Shown here one piece after another: positions 2,792-43,044 of a DNA stretch of 56,796 nt. Position numbers and translations under genes: made by a program. How positions within the stretch are numbered: position 1 is the first letter of the stretch; each line of letters begins with the position of its first letter. The stretch spans positions 1-56,796 of IMG/VR virus record IMGVR_UViG_3300025011_000055, one strand, 5' to 3'. The notes under the pieces were generated by a model. The model searched no databases. It worked only from the letters and a program-made list of their open reading frames with translations, and was not told the origin of the DNA. The DNA comes from a virus.

Positions 2792-3057
2792 AATTTTACA
2801 CCTGTTGGTTGATAGCGAAAGCGATCACAACTTACGCCGGCTCTGCCATGATCGTCAAATGAGAAACATGGTCCAGGCTCTTTGCAATATCTATCCTTGA
2901 CAAAATGCAAACCCTCATCATTTTTCTTGAATAACTGCAAACTGTCTTCCGCAATCACCCGCATAACTTTCTCCTGAAAGTTGAGATAAGGTTCAATCAC
3001 AGTCTTCGTTTGGATAATTACATATTGGGCATCTTGAGCCAGTGTATTTATATCCAC
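2776..3057 (-). CDS. hypothetical protein, cysteine-rich C-terminus (93 aa)
   Basis: Not recognised. The N-terminal 50 residues look helical and the C-terminal part has four cysteines (YCKEPGPC, VSCDRF, KLCVKL). The last 16 bases overlap the start of the secreted nuclease, an arrangement suggesting translational coupling. No signal peptide or membrane segment is visible. Confidence 0.6.
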   Translation of the reverse strand: MDINTLAQDAQYVIIQTKTVIEPYLNFQEKVMRVIAEDSLQLFKKNDEGLHFVKDRYCKEPGPCFSFDDHGRAGVSCDRFRYQPTGVKLCVKL

Positions 3058-3069
3058 ACTGTTTACAAA

Positions 3070-3861
3070 TTACCATTGCATCATTACAGTTTTGCTACTA
3101 TCGCCAAAAGGAGCATGAAGATAAATACCTCCGTGTGAGGTTCCTGTATTATCATCTCCATCACCATTTGGGCCAATACCAGGTTTGTAAACAAAACCAT
3201 ACATATTGGCTCTCGAGTTCCGACTACAATTTTCCTGGTCCCGACAATTCTTCAGAGGATTCTTAACAATGAACGTCTTCCCTGAAGCAAAGGTAAACTT
3301 TATAGGACCTGCTCCAAGAGAGTCTCCGCGCTTGTTAATTCGCCAAGCTTGCCTTCCTTGATTACGAACCCCATAACTGTCATAGTTTGCTGAATGGCTG
3401 TACGATCCTGTTGAAGTTCCTGAATCTGTCGGTGTCGTTGCTGATCCACTCTTAGCAATACAAGTCTGTCCATCAGAAGTTTTGACACTAATTTGCAGCG
3501 GACGTAAATACTGCACATCAGAATTAGCCAGTAAATAAACCGGACATCCTTTATAAGGTACTCCTCGTCGAGCAACCTCACCATTTACAATCACAGAAAC
3601 AACTGCACTATCTTGAAGAGTACGAAGCAATACTGCTGGCTTGCCATTATTCTGATCAGCACCACGTTCAAAAGTTATAGGCATTGTACAGACTTTTGTT
3701 CCATCAGGCACTGGTATAATCGGATCAACTGAAGGTACTACAGTGCCCCCCGGAAAATACTGAGCACAGAGGGCGTTACACTCATTCAGGGACTGAGGAA
3801 TGGTCACTGCTCCTACTGGCACTGCCCAGAGCAAGGCAAGGACCAAGATAAGGCGAAACAT
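3070..3861 (-). CDS. exported hypothetical protein (263 aa)
   Basis: Residues 1-18 form a clear signal peptide (MFRLILVLALLWAVPVGA). The mature part has several cysteine pairs (NECNALC, CRDQENC), a Ser/Thr-rich linker at about 140-165 and a glycine-rich C-terminal third. It is part of a run of four exported proteins. TGATG couples it to the lipoprotein gene upstream. No family was recognised; a periplasmic or surface role is inferred only from the signal peptide. Confidence 0.65.
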   Translation of the reverse strand: MFRLILVLALLWAVPVGAVTIPQSLNECNALCAQYFPGGTVVPSVDPIIPVPDGTKVCTMPITFERGADQNNGKPAVLLRTLQDSAVVSVIVNGEVARRGVPYKGCPVYLLANSDVQYLRPLQISVKTSDGQTCIAKSGSATTPTDSGTSTGSYSHSANYDSYGVRNQGRQAWRINKRGDSLGAGPIKFTFASGKTFIVKNPLKNCRDQENCSRNSRANMYGFVYKPGIGPNGDGDDNTGTSHGGIYLHAPFGDSSKTVMMQW

Positions 3862-6949: not shown

Positions 6950-7005
6950 AATACTCTCCTATATGATAATCATTATTAGAAGTAAATTTATATTAACACA
7001 AAACC

Positions 7006-7035
7006 TGTAATAATAAAGGTTCCCTTATTATTACA
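7006..7035. terminator. strong hairpin in the gap between two late genes
   Basis: TGTAATAATAAAGG and CCTTATTATTACA form a stem of 12-13 pairs with a three-base loop, one base bulged. On the plus strand it is followed by TTCTTTTTT, on the minus strand by GGTTTTGTG. It lies ten bases past the stop of the repeat protein (7045-7983), so it may end or attenuate late transcription and could also stop antisense transcription. Confidence 0.6.
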
Positions 7036-7044
7036 AGTTCTTTT

Positions 7045-7983
7045 TTAATATGCCCGAAGCAACATATAGCTGAATGCATGAGCATTAGAAGGATCAGCCG
7101 AGCACGTAACTGTCATAGTATCAGCAGTCATCACAACCTTGAGAATGCTATCCGTATCATTCGTAGTATTATAAATAACGATAGGAATATCTGTGGCAAG
7201 CGCTCCAGAGATAGTAACTGCCTCCGCTGCTGCACCACCAACTGTCGTATGCGTTCCAGCATAAGCAATATAATGACTTGGCTTGAACGTACCGCGAGGT
7301 CTGATAACAACATAGTGAAGACTATGTACAGTGCTAGGATCAGCCGAGCAAGTAACCGTAATAGTATTAGCAGTGCAAACTATATCACTAATAGTATCAG
7401 TGTCATTTGTTGCACCATAATTAACAAAAGCCATATCAGTAGCCAAAACACCAGCAACCGTAATAGCTTCTGCAGCAGCACCACCAACCGTAACATGTGT
7501 ACCAGCTGCAACTATGTCCCATTCAGGAATACATCTATTCCTTAACAAGGCATAATCATATCCATGTGCTGTACTAGGATCTGCACTACCTACAATAGTA
7601 ATTGTATTATCAGTAGCTATAGCAGAAACTATCTGATCATTATCATCAGAAACTTCATGATTAACAATAGCTATGTCAGTGGAAAGAATCAGTCCACTTC
7701 GAGTAATAACCTCAGTCGTATCACCTCCGGCAGAAGTAACTGGACCTTCAGCCAGCTTAATGCCATAACCATAAGTTGGGCCAACAGGAACAAACAAGCA
7801 CGATGCAGCAGTGCCCATATTTATCCATTGAGCTGCCTGCCCAAGAGCTACATCAGTCTTAGTGAATGTACATCCAGGATTATATCCTGCAGAACCAGAT
7901 GCAGGAACCGTAGATCCTGAAGCCATAGATTTATTTCTGGAAGTATCAAGTGTGATACCGTTTGGAAAGTTTGTTACGCCCAT
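7045..7983 (-). CDS. structural protein with three tandem domains (312 aa)
   Basis: Start at MGVTNFPNG because GGAGAA lies just upstream. After an N-terminal segment of about 80 residues the protein holds three tandem repeats of about 65-80 residues, each with a (A/T)xxITxxGxLxTDxxIV core, a (N/D)DtD segment and ending SADPS.(A/V)H....Y..(L/I)R. The last two are closest (both begin AGTH.TVGGAAAEA). This points to an array of beta domains, as in head-decoration or head-fibre proteins. It lies immediately downstream of the major capsid gene. Confidence 0.65.
   Translation of the reverse strand: MGVTNFPNGITLDTSRNKSMASGSTVPASGSAGYNPGCTFTKTDVALGQAAQWINMGTAASCLFVPVGPTYGYGIKLAEGPVTSAGGDTTEVITRSGLILSTDIAIVNHEVSDDNDQIVSAIATDNTITIVGSADPSTAHGYDYALLRNRCIPEWDIVAAGTHVTVGGAAAEAITVAGVLATDMAFVNYGATNDTDTISDIVCTANTITVTCSADPSTVHSLHYVVIRPRGTFKPSHYIAYAGTHTTVGGAAAEAVTISGALATDIPIVIYNTTNDTDSILKVVMTADTMTVTCSADPSNAHAFSYMLLRAY
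7051..7745 (-). repeat. three tandem coding repeats of about 200-240 bp
   Basis: DNA encoding the three related protein domains of the gene at 7045-7983: approximately 7745-7545 (most diverged), 7508-7300 and 7262-7051. They share the phrase AGTGCTnGGATCnGC-type segment for the SADPS motif and the GGTGGTGCAGC-type segment for GGAAAEA. Boundaries are approximate. Confidence 0.6.
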
Positions 7984-12223: not shown

Positions 12224-12277
12224 ATTATCTCCTTAACTATATTCACGTTTCACCGTGCTTTCTTTTAATCCTAACTA

Positions 12278-12493
12278 TTATTCTTCTTTTGTTGCCACGA
12301 TCTTATTGCTGCAAGCCAAGGTTATTGTACCAGCACCCAAATGACCTACACCAAATGACATCTGATGGATTGCAGAGATAGCGCCATGCAAAACATGTCT
12401 ATCCGTGCAGATGTCTTTCTTGATGCAATCTCCCTGACCTTCAGGTGTTGCTGATGGATAATTACAACATGGTGTTACAAGTGAATATGACAT
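12278..12493 (-). CDS. hypothetical cysteine-containing protein (71 aa)
   Basis: The start MSYSLVTPCCN is preceded by CAAGGAGAATAAT; a longer in-frame start would overlap the portal gene. Six cysteines (PCCN, GDC, DIC, ACSN) and a glycine-rich C-terminal half. It follows the portal gene by one base. Function unknown. Confidence 0.6.
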   Translation of the reverse strand: MSYSLVTPCCNYPSATPEGQGDCIKKDICTDRHVLHGAISAIHQMSFGVGHLGAGTITLACSNKIVATKEE

Positions 12494-12494
12494 A

Positions 12495-14729
12495 TTATTC
12501 TCCTTGATTGTTATTCTCTGAAACATACTCTCGCTTCATTGTACTTTCTTTTAATCCACCAGGTGCTTTGCCTAAACTTTGCTGACTTCGCCCGAGTTCT
12601 AATTGACCAGAAATTTGCTTATCCTTAAGAGCTAAATCTGTAGCATCATTATCCATGTCTGCAATTGTCTTCTCTTGTTCAAGTTGTTTACCAGGAATCT
12701 CTGTCATAATCTTCTGAGTTTCCGCATTCAACTTGGCGACCTTTGCACTTAGTTCTGTAATCTCAGCCTGGAGTTTCTGCATCGCGAGTTGTTCAGCTGG
12801 ATCAGTCTGGTCTTCTGCAGGAAAGAACCTCTCAACATCTTCGATATCAAGTGCAAGTAAATACTGTCGCAAGATTTCCTGATCATTCAAACCTTGGCCT
12901 CGCAGCTCTAGCATGGCCTTCGCCTTGAGAAGCCGCTGCATCATTGTCGTGCTGTTCGGATCACTAACCGGAACAACATCGAAATCTGCACTAGAGAAGT
13001 CAGCCTGAACAATTGCCTGCTGATCATCCAGGACAACACTATATGTCATCTGATCTAAATAAAGAGCATTCAGTCTTCGTAACTTTATGAACTCCTTATA
13101 TTGACTTCGGTACAATCGCTTGTGAATTGCACTGTAGACTTGCAGCCCCTGTTCAATAAGGGCAAGTACAGACTCAGCCGGAACATTCGCACCAGGAGAA
13201 TTACCAGCAAGAATCTCTGTCATGCCGGCAAGTTCTTTACCACTCTCGATTAGCAAGCCGAGCAATTGAAAGAGAACATTACTTGGCTCACGCACTGGCA
13301 TTGGGAAGATGTTCTTGCGAAGATCGTCGCCTGTTGCATCTACTGGCTTCCACTCGCCTGACTTGACCTGAATTGATTTGCCCCTGCCAAGCTTAAGGCC
13401 TCTCCCTAGGAAACCAGACTGACGATTTGATAACGTCCCTGCATCAAGCAATTGATTAATAACTGTGTTTATGGCTGAGTTACTGCTCATCAACAGTGAG
13501 CCAAACCCCATGCCATAAAAGCCTCCATCAATCGCTGGCATGAAAATAAAGCGAGTAAAGTATTGCTCTGGGAGGATCTTAACAATTGGTCCGTCTAGAT
13601 CAACTACGCCAGATTCATCAGACTTGCGAATAATCCCATCCGTGGCAAACCGAGGAGATATGCGAACTAACTTCTGTGATTGTTCATGAACAGTTACTAC
13701 ATACGGCTCTTGATAGCCATCATTATCTAAGTCATACCAACGATGTTGTTCAAGAAACAAATGTGGAGTATCTTCATCTACATCAGCAGTCTTATCACTG
13801 GTTGCCTGACCAAGTTCAGCTACATCAAACTTGATAAAAATCCCAGAATTGATGCGCTCAACAATTTCATTATGGTACAAATAGATTCTATGAGTTACTC
13901 GTGGAGCCCTCTCCAATGATTCGGCAAAGTAATTTACAACCAAATCATCAGCAAAGACTATCTGAGATACGGACTTCCTCTCAATCGAATCGAAGTAACT
14001 CTTTTTGAATACACAACCGATTGCGGGCAAGGTAAAAAGTAGCTGGTCAACTCCTTCTTCCCAATCTTCCATTAGGGACAGAAGCTGGAAAGACATAAAC
14101 TGAGAAATTCGGTTGGCCTTATCAAACTTACGATTGTCTGGATCAGTTCCTATGACCTTACCTTTGACAACTTCATTACCTTTAATAAGCTCAGGATATG
14201 CCCTAGCAGCAAACTGGATGCAAGCATTAATTATTAATGGGTACTTAACATTAGCAACAACTTCGCCTGCATAGACTTTCTTCTTTACGAGCAGCTTAGC
14301 CAGGTCGATGATCTGCACATTGAGTGCTTCCCATTCAGTTCGGCTAGCCAAATCTAGCTTGTAGCCTTCCAGGACTTTAGTCGTAATATCTGCTAAGGTT
14401 TCCTTATTTTGTTTATCAGCAAGATTAGTGATAAGTACAACTGCTTCAGCTCTGAGAGCTTCTTTTTCCACAAGAGCAGTCGTGGTAGGATCAACTTGAA
14501 TTGGCGCTATAATATCCTCGATAGGTTCCTCAGTTGCCCAAAATGGAACTTGGCCCATGAGACTAGCTTGCTCGTCATCTGGAAGGTTTGTGCCTGTGTT
14601 CAAGGTTGAGTTGGTTCGTGTAGGCAGCTTTGCTGCTTGACCAGCTATAATTGCATTCGCCATCGGAGTCGCTGGATTGCCTGGATCAACAAGTTCCTCT
14701 ACAGGAAATTCAAAACCATTATTAGCCAT
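12495..14729 (-). CDS. portal protein
   Basis: A 744-residue protein immediately downstream of the large terminase. The N-terminal 60 residues are low-complexity; then a long helical region, the core AIGCVFKKSYFDS, VVNYFAESLERAPRVTHRIYL and YRSQYKEFIKLRRLNALYLDQM, and a C-terminal coiled coil at about 640-690 (QKLQAEITELSAKVAKLNAET), as in the large portal proteins of podoviruses. Portals form the dodecameric DNA channel and terminase dock. A late-gene position and size both fit. Confidence 0.82.
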   Translation of the reverse strand: MANNGFEFPVEELVDPGNPATPMANAIIAGQAAKLPTRTNSTLNTGTNLPDDEQASLMGQVPFWATEEPIEDIIAPIQVDPTTTALVEKEALRAEAVVLITNLADKQNKETLADITTKVLEGYKLDLASRTEWEALNVQIIDLAKLLVKKKVYAGEVVANVKYPLIINACIQFAARAYPELIKGNEVVKGKVIGTDPDNRKFDKANRISQFMSFQLLSLMEDWEEGVDQLLFTLPAIGCVFKKSYFDSIERKSVSQIVFADDLVVNYFAESLERAPRVTHRIYLYHNEIVERINSGIFIKFDVAELGQATSDKTADVDEDTPHLFLEQHRWYDLDNDGYQEPYVVTVHEQSQKLVRISPRFATDGIIRKSDESGVVDLDGPIVKILPEQYFTRFIFMPAIDGGFYGMGFGSLLMSSNSAINTVINQLLDAGTLSNRQSGFLGRGLKLGRGKSIQVKSGEWKPVDATGDDLRKNIFPMPVREPSNVLFQLLGLLIESGKELAGMTEILAGNSPGANVPAESVLALIEQGLQVYSAIHKRLYRSQYKEFIKLRRLNALYLDQMTYSVVLDDQQAIVQADFSSADFDVVPVSDPNSTTMMQRLLKAKAMLELRGQGLNDQEILRQYLLALDIEDVERFFPAEDQTDPAEQLAMQKLQAEITELSAKVAKLNAETQKIMTEIPGKQLEQEKTIADMDNDATDLALKDKQISGQLELGRSQQSLGKAPGGLKESTMKREYVSENNNQGE

Positions 14730-27671: not shown

Positions 27672-28283
27672 ATGATTAAAGAATTAACATACGATGATCT
27701 CCATAAAAGATTTAAATACTTTCCAGATTCAGGAATCTTGATAGATAAAGAAAATGATTCTTTAATTGGAAAGATAAATTATGCTGGATATTTAAACGTT
27801 TTTTTAAATGGAAGACTTTATGGAGTTCATCGTATAGTTTATTTTATGTATTATGGCTATATGCCAAAAGGGCAGATTGATCATATTAATAGAATTAGAA
27901 ATGATAATAGAATAGAAAATTTACGTGAAGTTTTTGCTTCGGAAAATGCTAAAAATAAAGGTAATGGAAAGACAAATAAATCTGGAATTATTGGTATAAG
28001 ATGGCTTGGGCATGTAAAACGTTGGAAAGTCTATATTACTTTTAAAGGAAAATTAATTCATATAGGAAACTTTAAGTTTTTTATTAATGCTGCAAAAGCT
28101 AGATTATATGCAGAAAATATATTTAATTATACTCAGCATACTATTGAGAGTCCAGCAGCAAAATTTTTAAAAAGTATAAACTTTGCTAAATTTTTAGATG
28201 GAGAATCAAATAGTGTTTCATCCGAATGGAGATTTTTTTGTCTTGATCGCAAGAAGATTCTTGATCAACTTGCAAATAGCTAA
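27672..28283 (+). CDS. HNH homing-type endonuclease with AP2 domain
   Basis: 203 residues. An HNH core at about 50-95 (GVHRIVYFMYYG, then QIDHINRIRNDNRIENLREV) is followed by an AP2-type DNA-binding domain at about 105-155 (SGIIGIRWLGHVKRWKVYI). This is the standard layout of phage homing endonucleases. It is very AT-rich, except for its last 25 codons, and stands between a promoter and the gene at 28348, so it is probably a mobile insertion. Confidence 0.88.
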   Translation: MIKELTYDDLHKRFKYFPDSGILIDKENDSLIGKINYAGYLNVFLNGRLYGVHRIVYFMYYGYMPKGQIDHINRIRNDNRIENLREVFASENAKNKGNGKTNKSGIIGIRWLGHVKRWKVYITFKGKLIHIGNFKFFINAAKARLYAENIFNYTQHTIESPAAKFLKSINFAKFLDGESNSVSSEWRFFCLDRKKILDQLANS

Positions 28284-30397: not shown

Positions 30398-31204
30398 ATG
30401 AACCCACAAGCAGCTTCAGTACCAAATTTCAATAAAACAAAGCTAGTTGAGAAGAAACGATATTTTGATCTCAAATTCTTGCTGACTGGAAACTCAGGCT
30501 CTGGTAAAACTCATTTTACAGCAACATATACTAAAGGCCCACTTCATTATTATCTTTTTGATAAGGGAGGTGAAAAAACAGTTGAAAAAATCATGGGCAG
30601 CAGGAATGACATTACTATTGATAACTTTTCAGCCAACTCTTTACTCTTCTCTGATTTTTGGCGAACATTCCAGGAGGATGAAAAAAATGGTTTGTTCCAA
30701 TGGTTGAAGGAACAGTCAGGCATGTTAGTGCTGGACTCTCTGACGAATGCAAACAAGAAAGCAATTCATGAAATTGAAAAAAAATCTGGTATTACTCCAA
30801 GCGGCATCGGTAAAAAGATCGACATGAAGATGGGCATGGCGCCTGCGCATTGGGGCCAACTGCTTAATTGGATGAGCACTTTGGTAAGTTCACTCCAGGA
30901 ACTTCCTTGTGCAGTTGCAGTAACAGTTCATCTTCATACTCTTATGAATTCTGATCAAGAAGTAGTAGCAAGGTATCCTGCAGTTAATGGTCAGTTCAGG
31001 CAATTACTTGCTGCTGATTTTGATGAAGCATACTTGCTGACAACACAAGGAACGAAACGGCAAATCTTCTTTACTGAAAAACTTGCATTTGAAGCAAAAT
31101 CTCGTGTATTTGATATGCCAAAGGTTGAAGGAATATCAATGGATCAATTAGCAAACGCATATTTGGCAGGAAAAACAGTTATTCCACAATCCATCTCAGC
31201 GTAA
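30398..31204 (+). CDS. Sak4-like RecA-family ATPase (recombinase)
   Basis: 268 residues with Walker A TGNSGSGKTH at about 31-40 and Walker B MLVLDS near 108. The LFDKGGEKTVEKI and VAVTVHLHTLMNS segments match the single-domain RecA-like phage proteins of the Sak4 type, which promote single-strand annealing. AAAGGAGTTTTAA precedes the ATG. Its neighbours, a Cas4-like nuclease and a DUF669-like protein, are the usual partners. Confidence 0.8.
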   Translation: MNPQAASVPNFNKTKLVEKKRYFDLKFLLTGNSGSGKTHFTATYTKGPLHYYLFDKGGEKTVEKIMGSRNDITIDNFSANSLLFSDFWRTFQEDEKNGLFQWLKEQSGMLVLDSLTNANKKAIHEIEKKSGITPSGIGKKIDMKMGMAPAHWGQLLNWMSTLVSSLQELPCAVAVTVHLHTLMNSDQEVVARYPAVNGQFRQLLAADFDEAYLLTTQGTKRQIFFTEKLAFEAKSRVFDMPKVEGISMDQLANAYLAGKTVIPQSISA

Positions 31205-38460: not shown

Positions 38461-40986
38461 ATGATAATTCCTAGCATATCAACTACAGCAACTCCGCAGA
38501 AAGAAGGTTCTTTCGATTGCTTGGCTGTAGAGTGCGCTCCAACTGATAACATACTCACGTCTGAGATTGCTATGGTTGGCGAAGCTCCAGGTGAAATTGA
38601 AGTCCTGAAGAACGAACCATTCGTTGGACCAACAGGTTCTCAGCTTAATCGCATCTGTGCAGCCGTCAGACTAGCTAGATATAAAATCTATCTCACTAAT
38701 GCTTGCAAAGCTAAGTTTCCCAAAAACAATACTGCTGTCTTATGGACAGATAAGGGCTATCGCCATCCAGACTGGTCTAAATTGCAGGCAGCACTAATTA
38801 ATGAGCTTGCACAATTTCCAGGCAAAGTCATAATGTTGCTTGGTGCAACTCCAATGAGACTTTTGCTGGATGAGCCACGCTATGATTCAATCACAAAATA
38901 TCGTGGATCATTCTACCATGCAGAAGACTTTCCACATTTGAAAGAAAAACTGGCTGGAAAGATAATAGGTTTGTCTTATCATCCATCTTTCACCCTCCCA
39001 TATGGTCAGCCCATCCACTTTTATACAATGATCGCAGACTTTACGAAAGCCCTACGAATCATTGAAGATCCAGAATTGCTTACCGATAATGTGGAAATAA
39101 AAATCAAGCCTAGCTTTGAAGAAATCATGCAGTTCTATGCATTGATTAAGACAAAACAATATGTGGCATTTGACATTGAAGCTACGCCAGAATTTATTAC
39201 CTGCTACTCATTGGCAGTATATCACGATAATAAGATCCTGTCCATGTCTGTTCCTCTAATGAACAACCAGGGCAACTATTGGGCAACAGCAGAAGAGATA
39301 AAAATATGGACTGGCTTAGCTGAAATACTTAATGATGAAGCCATAGGTAAGATTTGTCAAAATGGAATGTTCGATATCATGTTTACTTTCCGTACCATGA
39401 TGATTAAAACAGATAACTTTTATTTTGATACAATGCTTGCGCAGCATATATGTTATACAGAACTTCCAAAGGGACTTGATTATCTAACTTCAACTTACAC
39501 TTACTATCCCTATTACAAAGACGAAGGAAAGCAATCACACCTTAAGGCCATCAAGAACTGGCCACAATACTGGACTTATAATGCCAAAGACTCAGCTTAC
39601 TTATTACCCATCACGGAGAAACTCCTTGAAGAATTAGGTGAATTCGATTCTATGGATGCTATGGATTATACAATGAATCTTCATAAGCCACTCATGGAAA
39701 TGGAATTCAATGGCATTCTGACTGATACAGATGGAATTGAAAAGATCAAATCTGAGTATGGAGTCAAGCTGATTGAGCTTCAAGCAGATCTGAATAAACT
39801 CGCAGGCAAGGAAATCAATCCTGGTTCAGCGAAACAAATGGTTGCATACTTCTACGGAACTTGTATGATTAAACCATATGTGAATCGCAAAACTGGATCA
39901 GTTACATGCGATACTGTAGCTTTGCACAGAATTGCAAAGAAAGATATTAAAGGTTCTGAAGAAGCTAGGATCATCATAAAGATTCGTAAGTATCAAAAGA
40001 TGGTATCTACTTACTTTAATATTCAAGTGGATGATGATAAGCGATTACGATGTAATCATAAAATATCTGGAACAGTCTCTGGCAGGATTGCTACTGAAAA
40101 GACTTATTTCGGTACTGGATCGAATCTTCAGAATCAGCCTTATGTTTTTAAATATTATCTCATTGCTGATGAAGATTGGATTCTCTGTGAATGTGATCTT
40201 GCCAAGGCAGAGGCTCATGTAGTTGCATACCTTACTCAAGATGCCAACATGATCCAGTCGTTTGAATCTGGTATTGATGTGCATAGTTTTAATGCAAGTA
40301 AGATATTCAATGTTCCGATTGAAGAAGTAATTCATGAAGCAAAAACTAAAAAGGCTGATCAGAAATCTACCATGCGTTATATGGGAAAAAAGGTAGTTCA
40401 TGCCTCGAACTATGCAATGGGTCCACAGACATTCTCTGACAATCTAGCGGCTGAGGAAATCTTCAAGTCACAGTCAGAGTGTAAGAGATTACTTGATATG
40501 TACTCTGACCGTTTTCCTGGACTGAAACGCTGGCATAGATCAATCGAAGAAGAAGTCCAGAAAAATCGAGTTCTCTATAACTTATTTGGCCGGCCTCGCA
40601 GGTTCTTAGGTGAAATGAATGCAGCATTATTCAGAAATGCTTATAGCTACAAGCCTCAGTCAACCGTTGCAGAGTTGCTCAATCGTGGAATGATTAAAGT
40701 AGTGACTGATCCTAGGCTAGGCAAAGATGGCTTTGACATTCGATGTATGACAACTGTTCATGATTCGTTTGTATTCAGGTTTCATAAGAGTCAGATTCCA
40801 AACCTATTACAAATCTTGTTAATTATCAAAGATCATTTGACACATACATTCACATATAAGGGAAAGAGTTTTACCATTGGTCTGGATGCTAAGGTGGGTA
40901 CCCAATGGGCCGGCAACACAGCTGATATAAGTAATTTCAATCAAGAAAGTATAGATCAAGCAATAAATAAAATAGGAGTTTTATAA
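38461..40986 (+). CDS. uracil-DNA-glycosylase-like/DNA polymerase A fusion
   Basis: 841 residues. The N-terminal 200 form a family-4-like uracil-DNA glycosylase domain (MVGEAPGEIE at 38-47, EPFVGPTG, LLGATP, then GLSYHPSF). A DEDD-type 3'-5' exonuclease follows (VAFDIEATPE near 233). The PolA-type polymerase has motif A ECDLAKAEAH near 577, motif B KKVVHASNYAMG near 643 and motif C TVHDSF near 764. It is the replicative polymerase. Its last 20 codons are AT-rich and differ from a relic end found behind the next gene. Confidence 0.9.
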   Translation: MIIPSISTTATPQKEGSFDCLAVECAPTDNILTSEIAMVGEAPGEIEVLKNEPFVGPTGSQLNRICAAVRLARYKIYLTNACKAKFPKNNTAVLWTDKGYRHPDWSKLQAALINELAQFPGKVIMLLGATPMRLLLDEPRYDSITKYRGSFYHAEDFPHLKEKLAGKIIGLSYHPSFTLPYGQPIHFYTMIADFTKALRIIEDPELLTDNVEIKIKPSFEEIMQFYALIKTKQYVAFDIEATPEFITCYSLAVYHDNKILSMSVPLMNNQGNYWATAEEIKIWTGLAEILNDEAIGKICQNGMFDIMFTFRTMMIKTDNFYFDTMLAQHICYTELPKGLDYLTSTYTYYPYYKDEGKQSHLKAIKNWPQYWTYNAKDSAYLLPITEKLLEELGEFDSMDAMDYTMNLHKPLMEMEFNGILTDTDGIEKIKSEYGVKLIELQADLNKLAGKEINPGSAKQMVAYFYGTCMIKPYVNRKTGSVTCDTVALHRIAKKDIKGSEEARIIIKIRKYQKMVSTYFNIQVDDDKRLRCNHKISGTVSGRIATEKTYFGTGSNLQNQPYVFKYYLIADEDWILCECDLAKAEAHVVAYLTQDANMIQSFESGIDVHSFNASKIFNVPIEEVIHEAKTKKADQKSTMRYMGKKVVHASNYAMGPQTFSDNLAAEEIFKSQSECKRLLDMYSDRFPGLKRWHRSIEEEVQKNRVLYNLFGRPRRFLGEMNAALFRNAYSYKPQSTVAELLNRGMIKVVTDPRLGKDGFDIRCMTTVHDSFVFRFHKSQIPNLLQILLIIKDHLTHTFTYKGKSFTIGLDAKVGTQWAGNTADISNFNQESIDQAINKIGVL

Positions 40987-41480
40987 TGCAAGATAAAATA
41001 GACCTTATAGACTTTAAAGCTTTTTCAAACTTTGAAAAAAGATTTTTATCTCTTATGCCTGAAAACTCTTTTAATGATTATGATAGTTGTTGGTTATGGC
41101 AAGGTAAATTGGAGACTACAGGTTATGGAAGAATAGTATGTGGAAATAAACGTTATGGAGTACACCAACTTGCTTATATGATATTTAATGGGGATATTCC
41201 ACAAGGAAAAATAGTTAGGCATACTTGTGATAATAAAAATTGTATGAATCCTAAACATTTAGTCTTAGGTAATCATCAGGATAATGCTTTAGATTTAATG
41301 CAAAGAAAATCACCAATATTTGCACAGCTTAATGAAGAAGCAGTTAAGGTTATTAAATGGATGTTAAAGTATAAAAATCATCATGGATTATCTAGAAAAC
41401 TAGCTTCAGTATATAATGTTCATTTTACAACAATATCTGATATTAAAAGAAATAAAACTTGGTATTGGGTAAATGTATAG
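40986..41480 (+). CDS. HNH endonuclease inserted at the polymerase 3' end
   Basis: 164 residues: a GYGRIVCGNKRYGVHQLAYM strand/helix, then RHTCDNKNCMNPKHL with HNH metal residues, and a C-terminal helix-turn-helix (LSRKLASVYNVHFTTISDIKR). The ATG overlaps the polymerase stop (TAATG). It is very AT-rich. Immediately after its stop lies a remnant of the polymerase C-terminus, so it entered there as a mobile element. Confidence 0.9.
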   Translation: MQDKIDLIDFKAFSNFEKRFLSLMPENSFNDYDSCWLWQGKLETTGYGRIVCGNKRYGVHQLAYMIFNGDIPQGKIVRHTCDNKNCMNPKHLVLGNHQDNALDLMQRKSPIFAQLNEEAVKVIKWMLKYKNHHGLSRKLASVYNVHFTTISDIKRNKTWYWVNV

Positions 41481-41537
41481 ATCAGTAAGTTCACTCAGGA
41501 AGATTGTGATAAAGCTATTGAAAAGATAGGATTCTAA
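41481..41537 (+). pseudogene. relic 3' end of the DNA polymerase gene
   Basis: Nineteen codons in frame, ISKFTQEDCDKAIEKIGF and stop, without a start. The current polymerase ends ISNFNQESIDQAINKIGVL; twelve of the 18 residues match. The relic uses codons such as AAG, TTC and CAG where the current end uses AT-rich ones. It is best explained as the original polymerase end, displaced when the HNH cassette brought in its own copy. Confidence 0.8.
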
Positions 41538-41539
41538 TT

Positions 41540-41713
41540 ATGATAACTCAAAGATATCAAAAGAAAGAATTTTGTATTGCAATGAATTGTCCAAGACTAA
41601 TGAAAAGAAGTTTAAAATGTAAAACTAAATCTTGTATCTATTCTGCAAAACAGTTTCATCATTGGTTAAATGAAAATGATTTTTGTATAGCTAAGTGTAT
41701 TAAATCAATTTAA
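41540..41713 (+). CDS. cysteine-rich small protein (57 aa)
   Basis: MITQRYQKKEFCIAMNCPRL, then CKTKSCIY and CIAKCIKSI; seven cysteines in 57 residues suggest a metal site. AT-rich codons. Located between the polymerase relic and the primase/helicase. Its ribosome binding site is poor (GATTCTAATT). Confidence 0.45.
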   Translation: MITQRYQKKEFCIAMNCPRLMKRSLKCKTKSCIYSAKQFHHWLNENDFCIAKCIKSI

Positions 41714-41723
41714 GAGATAACTA

Positions 41724-41792
41724 ATGGCGAGGCCATTCAACAATCGTATGTCGCTATTCAAGGAACCTTTTCATGTCGAGGCAATTAGATAA
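41724..41792 (+). CDS. possible leader ORF overlapping the primase/helicase start (22 aa)
   Basis: ATG preceded by AAGAGATAACTA opens MARPFNNRMSLFKEPFHVEA and stops 20 bases inside the next gene. Its first seven codons resemble the start of that gene (MSRQLDN), so it may be a diverged duplicate of the 5' end rather than a translated leader. Confidence 0.3.
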   Translation: MARPFNNRMSLFKEPFHVEAIR

Positions 41793-43044
41793 TTGGTTGG
41801 CACATTATATGAAGTACACACAGCGAACAGAGCCTCCAGAACTTTATCATCTTTGGAGCGGACTAACAGCCATTAGTTCTGCCTTGCGAAGAAAGTGCTA
41901 TTGTAACTGGGGCGCATTGCGAGGTCATGTCTATCCTAATTTATTCGTATCTCTTGTCGGTCCACCTGGGGGACGGAAAGGCACAGCCATGAAAATTGCA
42001 AAAAGCTTTGTGCAAAAACTAGACGTTAATATCGGCGCAGATTCGCTAGGCTCAACCCAGGCATTGTATAGAGAACTCATGGACAGCGAAGATACTTATG
42101 TTGATCATGCTGGGTTTACTCGTAAGCATAAGAGTGTATCAATCTGGTCAGAAGAATTTCAAGTCTTCTTAAACGACAGAGACCAAATGCTCCTAGCATC
42201 CCTGACTGACCTGTTTGATTGTGCAGATACTTGGAAGTATAAAACTTTAGCAAGAAAGACTGAAGACATATCCAATTGCTGGCTAACGCTCTTTGGCTGC
42301 ATAACTCCTAGTCTCTTGCAATCTAAACTGAGTCAAGACGCTGTTGGTGGTGGCCTAATCTCCCGGATCATTTTCGTAGTTGGCCAGGGTCCCAAGCAAA
42401 GAAGAGCCTTGCAGTTTTTAACTGAAGAAGAGGAAGAGACACAAAAGAATTTAGAAAACGACCTGCAAGAAATTGCAAACTTATCCGGACAGTTCACCCT
42501 AAGTAAGGATTTTCTTAAAACTTATGTGCGTTGGTATGAGCAAGATTATGACGAGTCAGGTGTACCAAGTGAGCGATTCTTAGGCTATAATCATAGAAGA
42601 CCACTGCATTTGAATAAGGTCTGTATGTTGGTTTGTGCTGCCGAGTCTGACGACATGATAATTACAGCTGAACACTTCGAGCAAGCCTTAGCAATAATGC
42701 AAGCAACAGAACTTGAAATGCCAAACGCGTTCTATGGACTTGGTTTATCCAGTCAGGCTAACATCTATGCAAAGATACTTTCATTCATTGATAATCACGA
42801 ATCTTTTGAATGGACAGAACTGGTTAGAAACTTTCACCTAGATGTAGATAACATTCCTCAGCTACGAGGTTATGTTGAAATGGCTGAGCAGTCTGGAATA
42901 CTCAAAGCCGAGAATTCTGCCACTACTTGCATGTATACCACAATTCGTAAGCAACACAAAGTTCGTGATCCAACATATCTTGACAGAACAGTATTTAGGT
43001 TGATGGATAGGAATGTTATTAAAAATCAAATGGAGAAAAACTAA
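41773..43044 (+). CDS. DUF3987-like primase/helicase-type ATPase
   Basis: 423 residues. LWSGLTAISSALRRKCY then LVGPPGGRKGTAMKIA at about 60-75 with a Walker A variant (GPPGGRKG), KSVSIWSEEFQVFL, and GGLISRIIFV with a sensor-like arginine. This matches the DUF3987/replicative-helicase-like group seen in phages that lack a DnaB helicase. No primase domain is present. A role in fork unwinding with the adjacent polymerase is inferred. Confidence 0.75.
   Translation: MSRQLDNWLAHYMKYTQRTEPPELYHLWSGLTAISSALRRKCYCNWGALRGHVYPNLFVSLVGPPGGRKGTAMKIAKSFVQKLDVNIGADSLGSTQALYRELMDSEDTYVDHAGFTRKHKSVSIWSEEFQVFLNDRDQMLLASLTDLFDCADTWKYKTLARKTEDISNCWLTLFGCITPSLLQSKLSQDAVGGGLISRIIFVVGQGPKQRRALQFLTEEEEETQKNLENDLQEIANLSGQFTLSKDFLKTYVRWYEQDYDESGVPSERFLGYNHRRPLHLNKVCMLVCAAESDDMIITAEHFEQALAIMQATELEMPNAFYGLGLSSQANIYAKILSFIDNHESFEWTELVRNFHLDVDNIPQLRGYVEMAEQSGILKAENSATTCMYTTIRKQHKVRDPTYLDRTVFRLMDRNVIKNQMEKN

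Follow-up and report, generated by a model that had tools for sequence, protein, structure and literature searches.

The 3' end of a DNA polymerase gene in IMG/VR virus record IMGVR_UViG_3300025011_000055 (positions 1 to 56,796, a 56.8-kb stretch carrying tailed-phage genes and referred to below as the window) is most probably occupied by a mobile cassette, which spans approximately 40927 to 41480 and unites a substitute polymerase 3' end with a free-standing HNH homing gene, HNH1. Directly behind the cassette lies a relic of the displaced native polymerase end. Both empty and occupied alleles of this site are found, the polymerase sequence just left of the substitute tail is altered in its identity to relatives, and a second HNH gene at the same site, HNH2, has moved jointly with its tail.

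The polymerase consists of a UDG-like domain, a 3'-5' exonuclease and a family-A polymerase domain (Pfam). The DNA_pol_A match stops at residue 816, the tail begins just beyond it, and the present protein terminates in ...GNTAD-ISNFNQESIDQAINKIGVL. The start codon of HNH1 overlaps the polymerase stop codon (TAATG), and 18 codons plus a stop, encoding ISKFTQEDCDKAIEKIGF, follow in frame directly behind the HNH1 stop at 41480. This relic had been noticed in a sequence-only reading of the window, and its position at 41481-41537 is confirmed, although the 12 positions that were said to match the present polymerase end are actually 11 of 18 (ungapped), a value that none of 100,000 shuffles reached. 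Chance similarity is thus ruled out by the shuffles as well as by a scan for C-terminal copies with shuffled controls. The same reading had contrasted the composition of the two ends, and the contrast holds: GC content is 0.32 in the relic, 0.22 in the present tail and 0.52 in the 66 nt upstream. Among 45 polymerase tails those linked to HNH genes are the most AT-rich (GC 0.19-0.22), and the others are fairly AT-rich as well (0.23-0.40). An AGGA within the relic is the likely ribosome-binding site of the next open reading frame (ORF).

In a scan of IMG/VR, close relatives of the polymerase turned up at 37 loci, most of them full length and 74-100% identical (compared loci are designated by L numbers). 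Alleles without an HNH gene terminate in EISKFTQE(E/D)CDKAIEKIGF or close variants. The relic protein is identical to the end of close HNH-free relatives or differs from it by one residue, and its DNA matches such alleles at up to 52 of 54 nt, compared with 36-38 of 54 for the present tail. This comparison had been proposed by the sequence-only reading, which expected HNH-free homologues to resemble the relic and the cassette edge to fall near the end of the gene; both expectations are borne out, the edge lying within the last 19 codons. L008 and L030 represent genuinely empty sites, in which the native tail is followed by the same 57-residue ORF that lies behind the relic in the window, and this ORF is an older insertion than the HNH1 cassette. 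Across 26 alleles of the native tail, variation is synonymous at 12 codons and nonsynonymous at 2, a pattern indicating purifying selection, and therefore an invading element would need a substitute tail. Polymerase identity to the empty relatives falls from a background of 0.86-0.91 to 0.735-0.86 between 40760 and 40926 only. The drop starts about 100 nt before codon 800, and it is consistent with a short left flank imported alongside the tail. Two contigs assembled from other samples (L001, L002) carry the HNH1-occupied allele with no difference over 3,340 bases, and in sample 3300025010 empty (L006, L010), HNH1 (L001) and HNH2 (L017) alleles coexist.

The strongest evidence for mobility comes from HNH2, a different HNH gene of 153 residues and 44% identity to HNH1, which recurs at the polymerase site in three samples (L017, L018, L035). 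It sits behind a substitute tail, ISNFNQESIDKAINKIGF, and is followed by a relic, GKFTQEECDK(A/E)IEKIGF, the left edge of which lies 4 nt from that of the window relic. The HNH1 and HNH2 tails are each other's nearest match (43 of 54 nt) among the 45 tails compared. L017 and L035 belong to separate polymerase clades, B and A respectively, as judged from tree and identity, and their polymerases are 81% identical. Their HNH2 genes differ at only 3 of 460 nt (99% identity, one residue), their tails at 1 of 57 nt, and the approximately 70 nt upstream of the tail contain one difference. Farther upstream in the polymerase gene 219 of 1163 nt differ (Fisher 4e-35), and in the spacer, relic and downstream region 41 of 536 (Fisher 3e-9). 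Since gene, tail and the adjacent stretch are nearly identical while the flanks diverge, the HNH gene and the tail travel together; the alignments demonstrate that they moved between polymerase clades as one unit, with short co-conversion on the left. The relics in L017 and L035 are each recipient's own polymerase end, and that of L035 has already lost one conserved residue (DKAI to DKEI). This supports the earlier idea of an element equipped with a copy of its target's end, since the HNH gene and tail have moved and the relic is local. A contig from a further sample (L236, 1-490) also has the 3' part of HNH2, preceded there by sequence of bacterial appearance; this contig is probably chimeric and was not used. 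The features of the window are collected in Table 1.

Table 1. Coordinates of the polymerase site and of related features in the window
Feature	Positions	Strand	Remarks
DNA polymerase, target gene	38461..40986	+	Pfam UDG, DNA_pol_A_exo1, DNA_pol_A; PHROG DNA polymerase
Probable co-imported stretch left of the tail (left edge approximate)	40760..40926	+	identity drop versus empty relatives
Substitute polymerase 3' end, ISNFNQESIDQAINKIGVL	40927..40983	+	stop 40984-40986; GC 0.22; 36-38/54 nt to native tails
Free-standing HNH endonuclease gene (HNH1), 164 aa	40986..41480	+	HNH_3 1.6e-13
Relic, displaced native polymerase 3' end, ISKFTQEDCDKAIEKIGF and stop	41481..41537	+	up to 52/54 nt to empty alleles
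57-aa AT-rich ORF	41540..41713	+	found in empty-site L008/L030 too
Next core gene, DUF3987 primase/helicase-like	41773..43044	+	right-hand anchor of the site
Uninterrupted Sak4-like AAA_24 ATPase gene	30398..31204	+	C-terminus AYLAGKTVIPQSISA, the end of the L040 relic
Scar without HNH at the 3' end of a portal-like gene	12233..12526	-	small ORF and relic

HNH1 can be assigned from its sequence to the HNH (His-Me finger) class, as it has an HNH_3 domain with the catalytic histidine and the metal-binding asparagine. Its HNH motif is intact; H79 and N100 coincide in the alignment with the HNH residues of I-PpoI, and neither varies among 9 relatives. The nearest solved structure to the predicted fold is I-HmuI (PDB 1u3e; Foldseek probability 0.99, E 0.012), with a TM-score of 0.37 and low sequence identity; a profile search of solved structures using the HNH alignment returned nothing significant. 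HNH enzymes are often nickases, and I-HmuI is an example. HNH1 has its own start and stop codons and lies outside any intron or intein, with no Rfam intron found. A second, distant HNH_3 gene is present in the window (27672-28283, 203 residues), and the C-terminal scan detected no relic of a neighbouring gene near it.

These observations suggest the following sequence of events. The cassette would have entered an L008/L030-like allele at the codon boundary preceding the last 18 codons (around GAA^ATCAGTAAG). The HNH enzyme may nick or cut unoccupied alleles near the native GAAATCAGTAAG, upon which the left break end would pair with the conserved part of the polymerase gene in an occupied genome and copy the tail together with the HNH gene, while the right break end, carrying the native 3' end, would be rejoined behind the cassette and become the relic. 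One-sided illegitimate break repair of this kind has been documented for T4 intron homing (PMC2988022). The substitute tail would keep the polymerase complete and thereby act as a rescue, and the occupied allele could escape re-cutting, as neither the tail nor the split site would still match the target. The sequence-only reading had described the tail as recoded, which fits the result, but deliberate recoding need not be its origin. The tail may derive from a divergent relative or from an old duplicate; the former is favoured, and the tail is probably the 3' end of a divergent relative that has long been carried along with the HNH gene. Related natural tails with no HNH gene behind them are found in L031, L034, L174 and L179.

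The same arrangement is found at other genes. In L040 a third HNH gene, 49% identical, lies behind a Sak4-like ATPase gene that now terminates in LAKAYLAGKTIIPQGI, and it is followed by LATAYLAGKTVIPQSISA and a stop, which is the end form of uninterrupted ATPase relatives including the one in the window. In L112, which represents an unrelated phage, a fourth HNH gene lies behind ninB, with a substitute end and the relic GFADYLEQIYAYGASNGVMFS. HNH genes about 50% identical to HNH1 also split genes in the phage group to which the window belongs, separate ORFs being the result: an NAD-dependent ligase is split after GKAGEIIPK in L045, L046 and L050 (2700-3700), and the polymerase of L049 between its UDG-like and exonuclease domains (2800-3700). 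In addition, an HNH_3 gene stands directly behind DNA polymerase I, with no relic, in Acinetobacter phage AS12 (L184) and Corynebacterium phage phi674 (L186).

Several points weigh against a cassette driven by its own endonuclease. HNH1 is known from one phage genotype only, and its mobility is therefore extrapolated from HNH2. A relic is seen for only 5 of 83 distinct HNH relatives, 4 of them independent, and for none of the 15 relatives in named phages (9 in T7-like, Friunavirus, Corynebacterium and halovirus records, 6 in Vibrio, Myxococcus, Streptomyces and Gordonia records). The ninB case was read from the occupied allele of L112. Furthermore, five insertions bear the same scar around a small ORF that is not an HNH gene, which means that an endonuclease in cis is unnecessary for the scar and that the HNH gene may not always be its cause.

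These five were collected by a systematic scan for C-terminal copies downstream of genes, in which shuffled controls gave few, weak matches. Scores of 38-43 lie near the shuffle maximum and were not counted, except for L199 (score 40), which was confirmed, like L228 (44), by reading the DNA. In the window the portal-like gene (12495-14729, minus strand) has had its C-terminus replaced by MKREYVSENNNQGE and is followed by a small ORF (12278-12526) and by the relic GLKESTVKREYS with its stop (12233-12271); five relatives (L161-L165) have no small ORF, and their portal gene terminates in the relic form. In the other four a small AT-rich ORF precedes a copy of the end of the polymerase gene (L015/L016; L015 8430-8790), the ATPase gene (L159, 3180-3600), an exonuclease gene (L199, reverse complement, 7000-7480) or a ligase gene (L228, 10780-11080). 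The two end copies in L228 are identical over about 23 nt and look like a duplication. In L122 (6950-7300) a tyrosine recombinase-like gene ending in WTECAAELKL is followed by a short ORF and an end copy, WTECAAELKI. Insertion near gene ends thus leaves this scar generally, and the HNH elements are its clearest mobile users.

Two alternative explanations deserve to be weighed, each of which we regard as rather unlikely. According to one, gene ends are invaded by a general route, in which one-sided homologous recombination imports a foreign gene together with the donor's upstream 3' end and turns the recipient's end into a relic, so that the HNH gene is a passenger and not the driver. The scars without an HNH gene at the polymerase, ATPase, portal, exonuclease and ligase genes are what such a route would leave, and the polymerase 3' end is in fact a hotspot where at least nine different AT-rich sequences have inserted, most of them relic-free. 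However, both HNH inserts at this site have a relic and only one of the others does, the right junctions of two HNH genes that are 44% identical lie 4 nt apart in the same anatomy, which counts for homing, and HNH2, in crossing clades, took along no more than a short co-converted left flank, as homing predicts. The other alternative supposes that the last codons were doubled at insertion by staggered nicks or a copying error, and that the upstream copy subsequently drifted towards AT. An equally unlikely account on balance, it can draw on the short, near-exact gene-end repeats around the small ORFs of L228 and L199, on the frequent nickase activity of HNH enzymes, with I-HmuI as the nearest structure, and on the HNH-linked tails being the most AT-rich and mutually closest, as if they drifted with the element. 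Against it, tail and relic are 17 of 54 nt apart although purifying selection acts strongly on the native tail, the altered stretch in the window reaches upstream of the tail, for which a local duplication does not account, and the last codons (KIGVL, TTTTATAATG) match the natural tail of the divergent relative L179.

A group I intron or intein with the relic as the true last exon is highly improbable. Intein-like insertions do occur in this polymerase gene of relatives: they are in frame, end in ...GN, lie at two different points (L031, 7669-8592, 308 residues; L036, 7969-8370, 134 residues) and are not recognised by Pfam. Their positions are elsewhere in the gene, and an intein at this site was rejected. 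No group I intron matches the site (Rfam, E<=10), the HNH gene begins and ends with codons of its own, the polymerase ORF is complete before it, and the tail is homologous to the relic, therefore the arrangement is not an intron product. A chimeric assembly of co-existing strains might be suspected in a sample that contains many related strains, but it has next to no probability left and is excluded by independent contigs, the allele being identical in three assemblies (the window, L001, L002) and the HNH2 allele recurring in three samples.

The homing cassette remains the preferred explanation for the HNH-containing sites, and the scars without an HNH gene may point to a wider way of acquiring genes. 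A more tentative proposal, which we consider possible but on the doubtful side, is that gene gain at 3' ends is a general strategy of mobile elements, with cassettes of substitute tail and gene that home into the terminal codons of genes for replication, recombination and structure, some with an HNH gene and others with small cargo that uses the same break points in trans. Homologous cargo ORFs do recur behind two genes, the polymerase in L014 and the exonuclease in L199. If this proposal is correct, such elements would amount to natural drives of the home-and-rescue type whose cargo is non-autonomous. Should small non-HNH genes take the same path, the build-up of accessory genes at core-gene ends in phages would also be accounted for. 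In either case the relics offer a searchable signature of such insertion events.

The closest known parallels are the mobile ORFs of fungal mitochondria, described in atp6 of Allomyces macrogynus and in atp6, atp9, cox2 and nad3 of Glomus sp. (PMC3630166). There the 5' part of a gene is followed by an in-frame foreign C-terminus, an endonuclease ORF and the displaced native C-terminus, which is the order met here; the native end left downstream is closer to a relative's gene, and the inserted tail was ascribed to horizontal transfer (PMC3630166). The fungal elements encode LAGLIDADG or GIY-YIG enzymes in mitochondria, whereas the present ones carry HNH_3 genes in tailed phages, target replication and recombination genes, and come with population evidence that the HNH gene and tail move jointly. 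The window element thus works like a fungal mobile ORF and is not a member of that lineage. The sequence-only reading had called this mode of homing distinctive, which stands insofar as no report of a tailed-phage HNH element of this design was found in the open literature (subscription journals lay mostly outside the search), but not in the categorical sense, given the fungal precedent (PMC3630166).

Among phage systems, the mob and seg genes of T4 are also free-standing homing genes beside replication genes, which spread laterally with co-conversion (PMC2988022), but these genes have intact neighbours on both sides and cut at some distance, whereas HNH1 interrupts the coding sequence of its target 18 codons ahead of the native stop and supplies the missing end. 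Homing genes within coding sequences are known from the split genes nrdA of Aeh1 (mobE), gene 60 of T4 (mobA) and gene 43 of phage 25 (seg) (PMC2988022), and the ligase and polymerase genes split by HNH1 relatives resemble them; in the three known cases both halves remain used, and at the window polymerase a new distal part has taken over from the old, which is left unused. I-HmuI, the nearest solved fold to the HNH1 model, differs in being encoded in an intron, that of the SPO1 DNA polymerase gene. The design also has a counterpart in an engineered system, the HomeR drive of Drosophila, whose nuclease cassette homes into the last part of the PolG2 coding sequence and provides a re-coded rescue 3' end of 22-27 residues (PMC7968924). 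The two have in common a cassette with a substitute tail at the 3' end of a polymerase or polymerase-subunit gene, a likeness of logic and not of descent; HomeR uses Cas9/gRNA and preserves the tail protein exactly, while the phage element is natural, relies on an HNH gene and has a diverged tail protein. The coding sequence of a conserved gene can therefore host a homing gene with no intron, intein or splitting, since a probable rescue tail is supplied, and the logic of home-and-rescue drives is found in a natural phage population with empty, HNH1 and HNH2 alleles.
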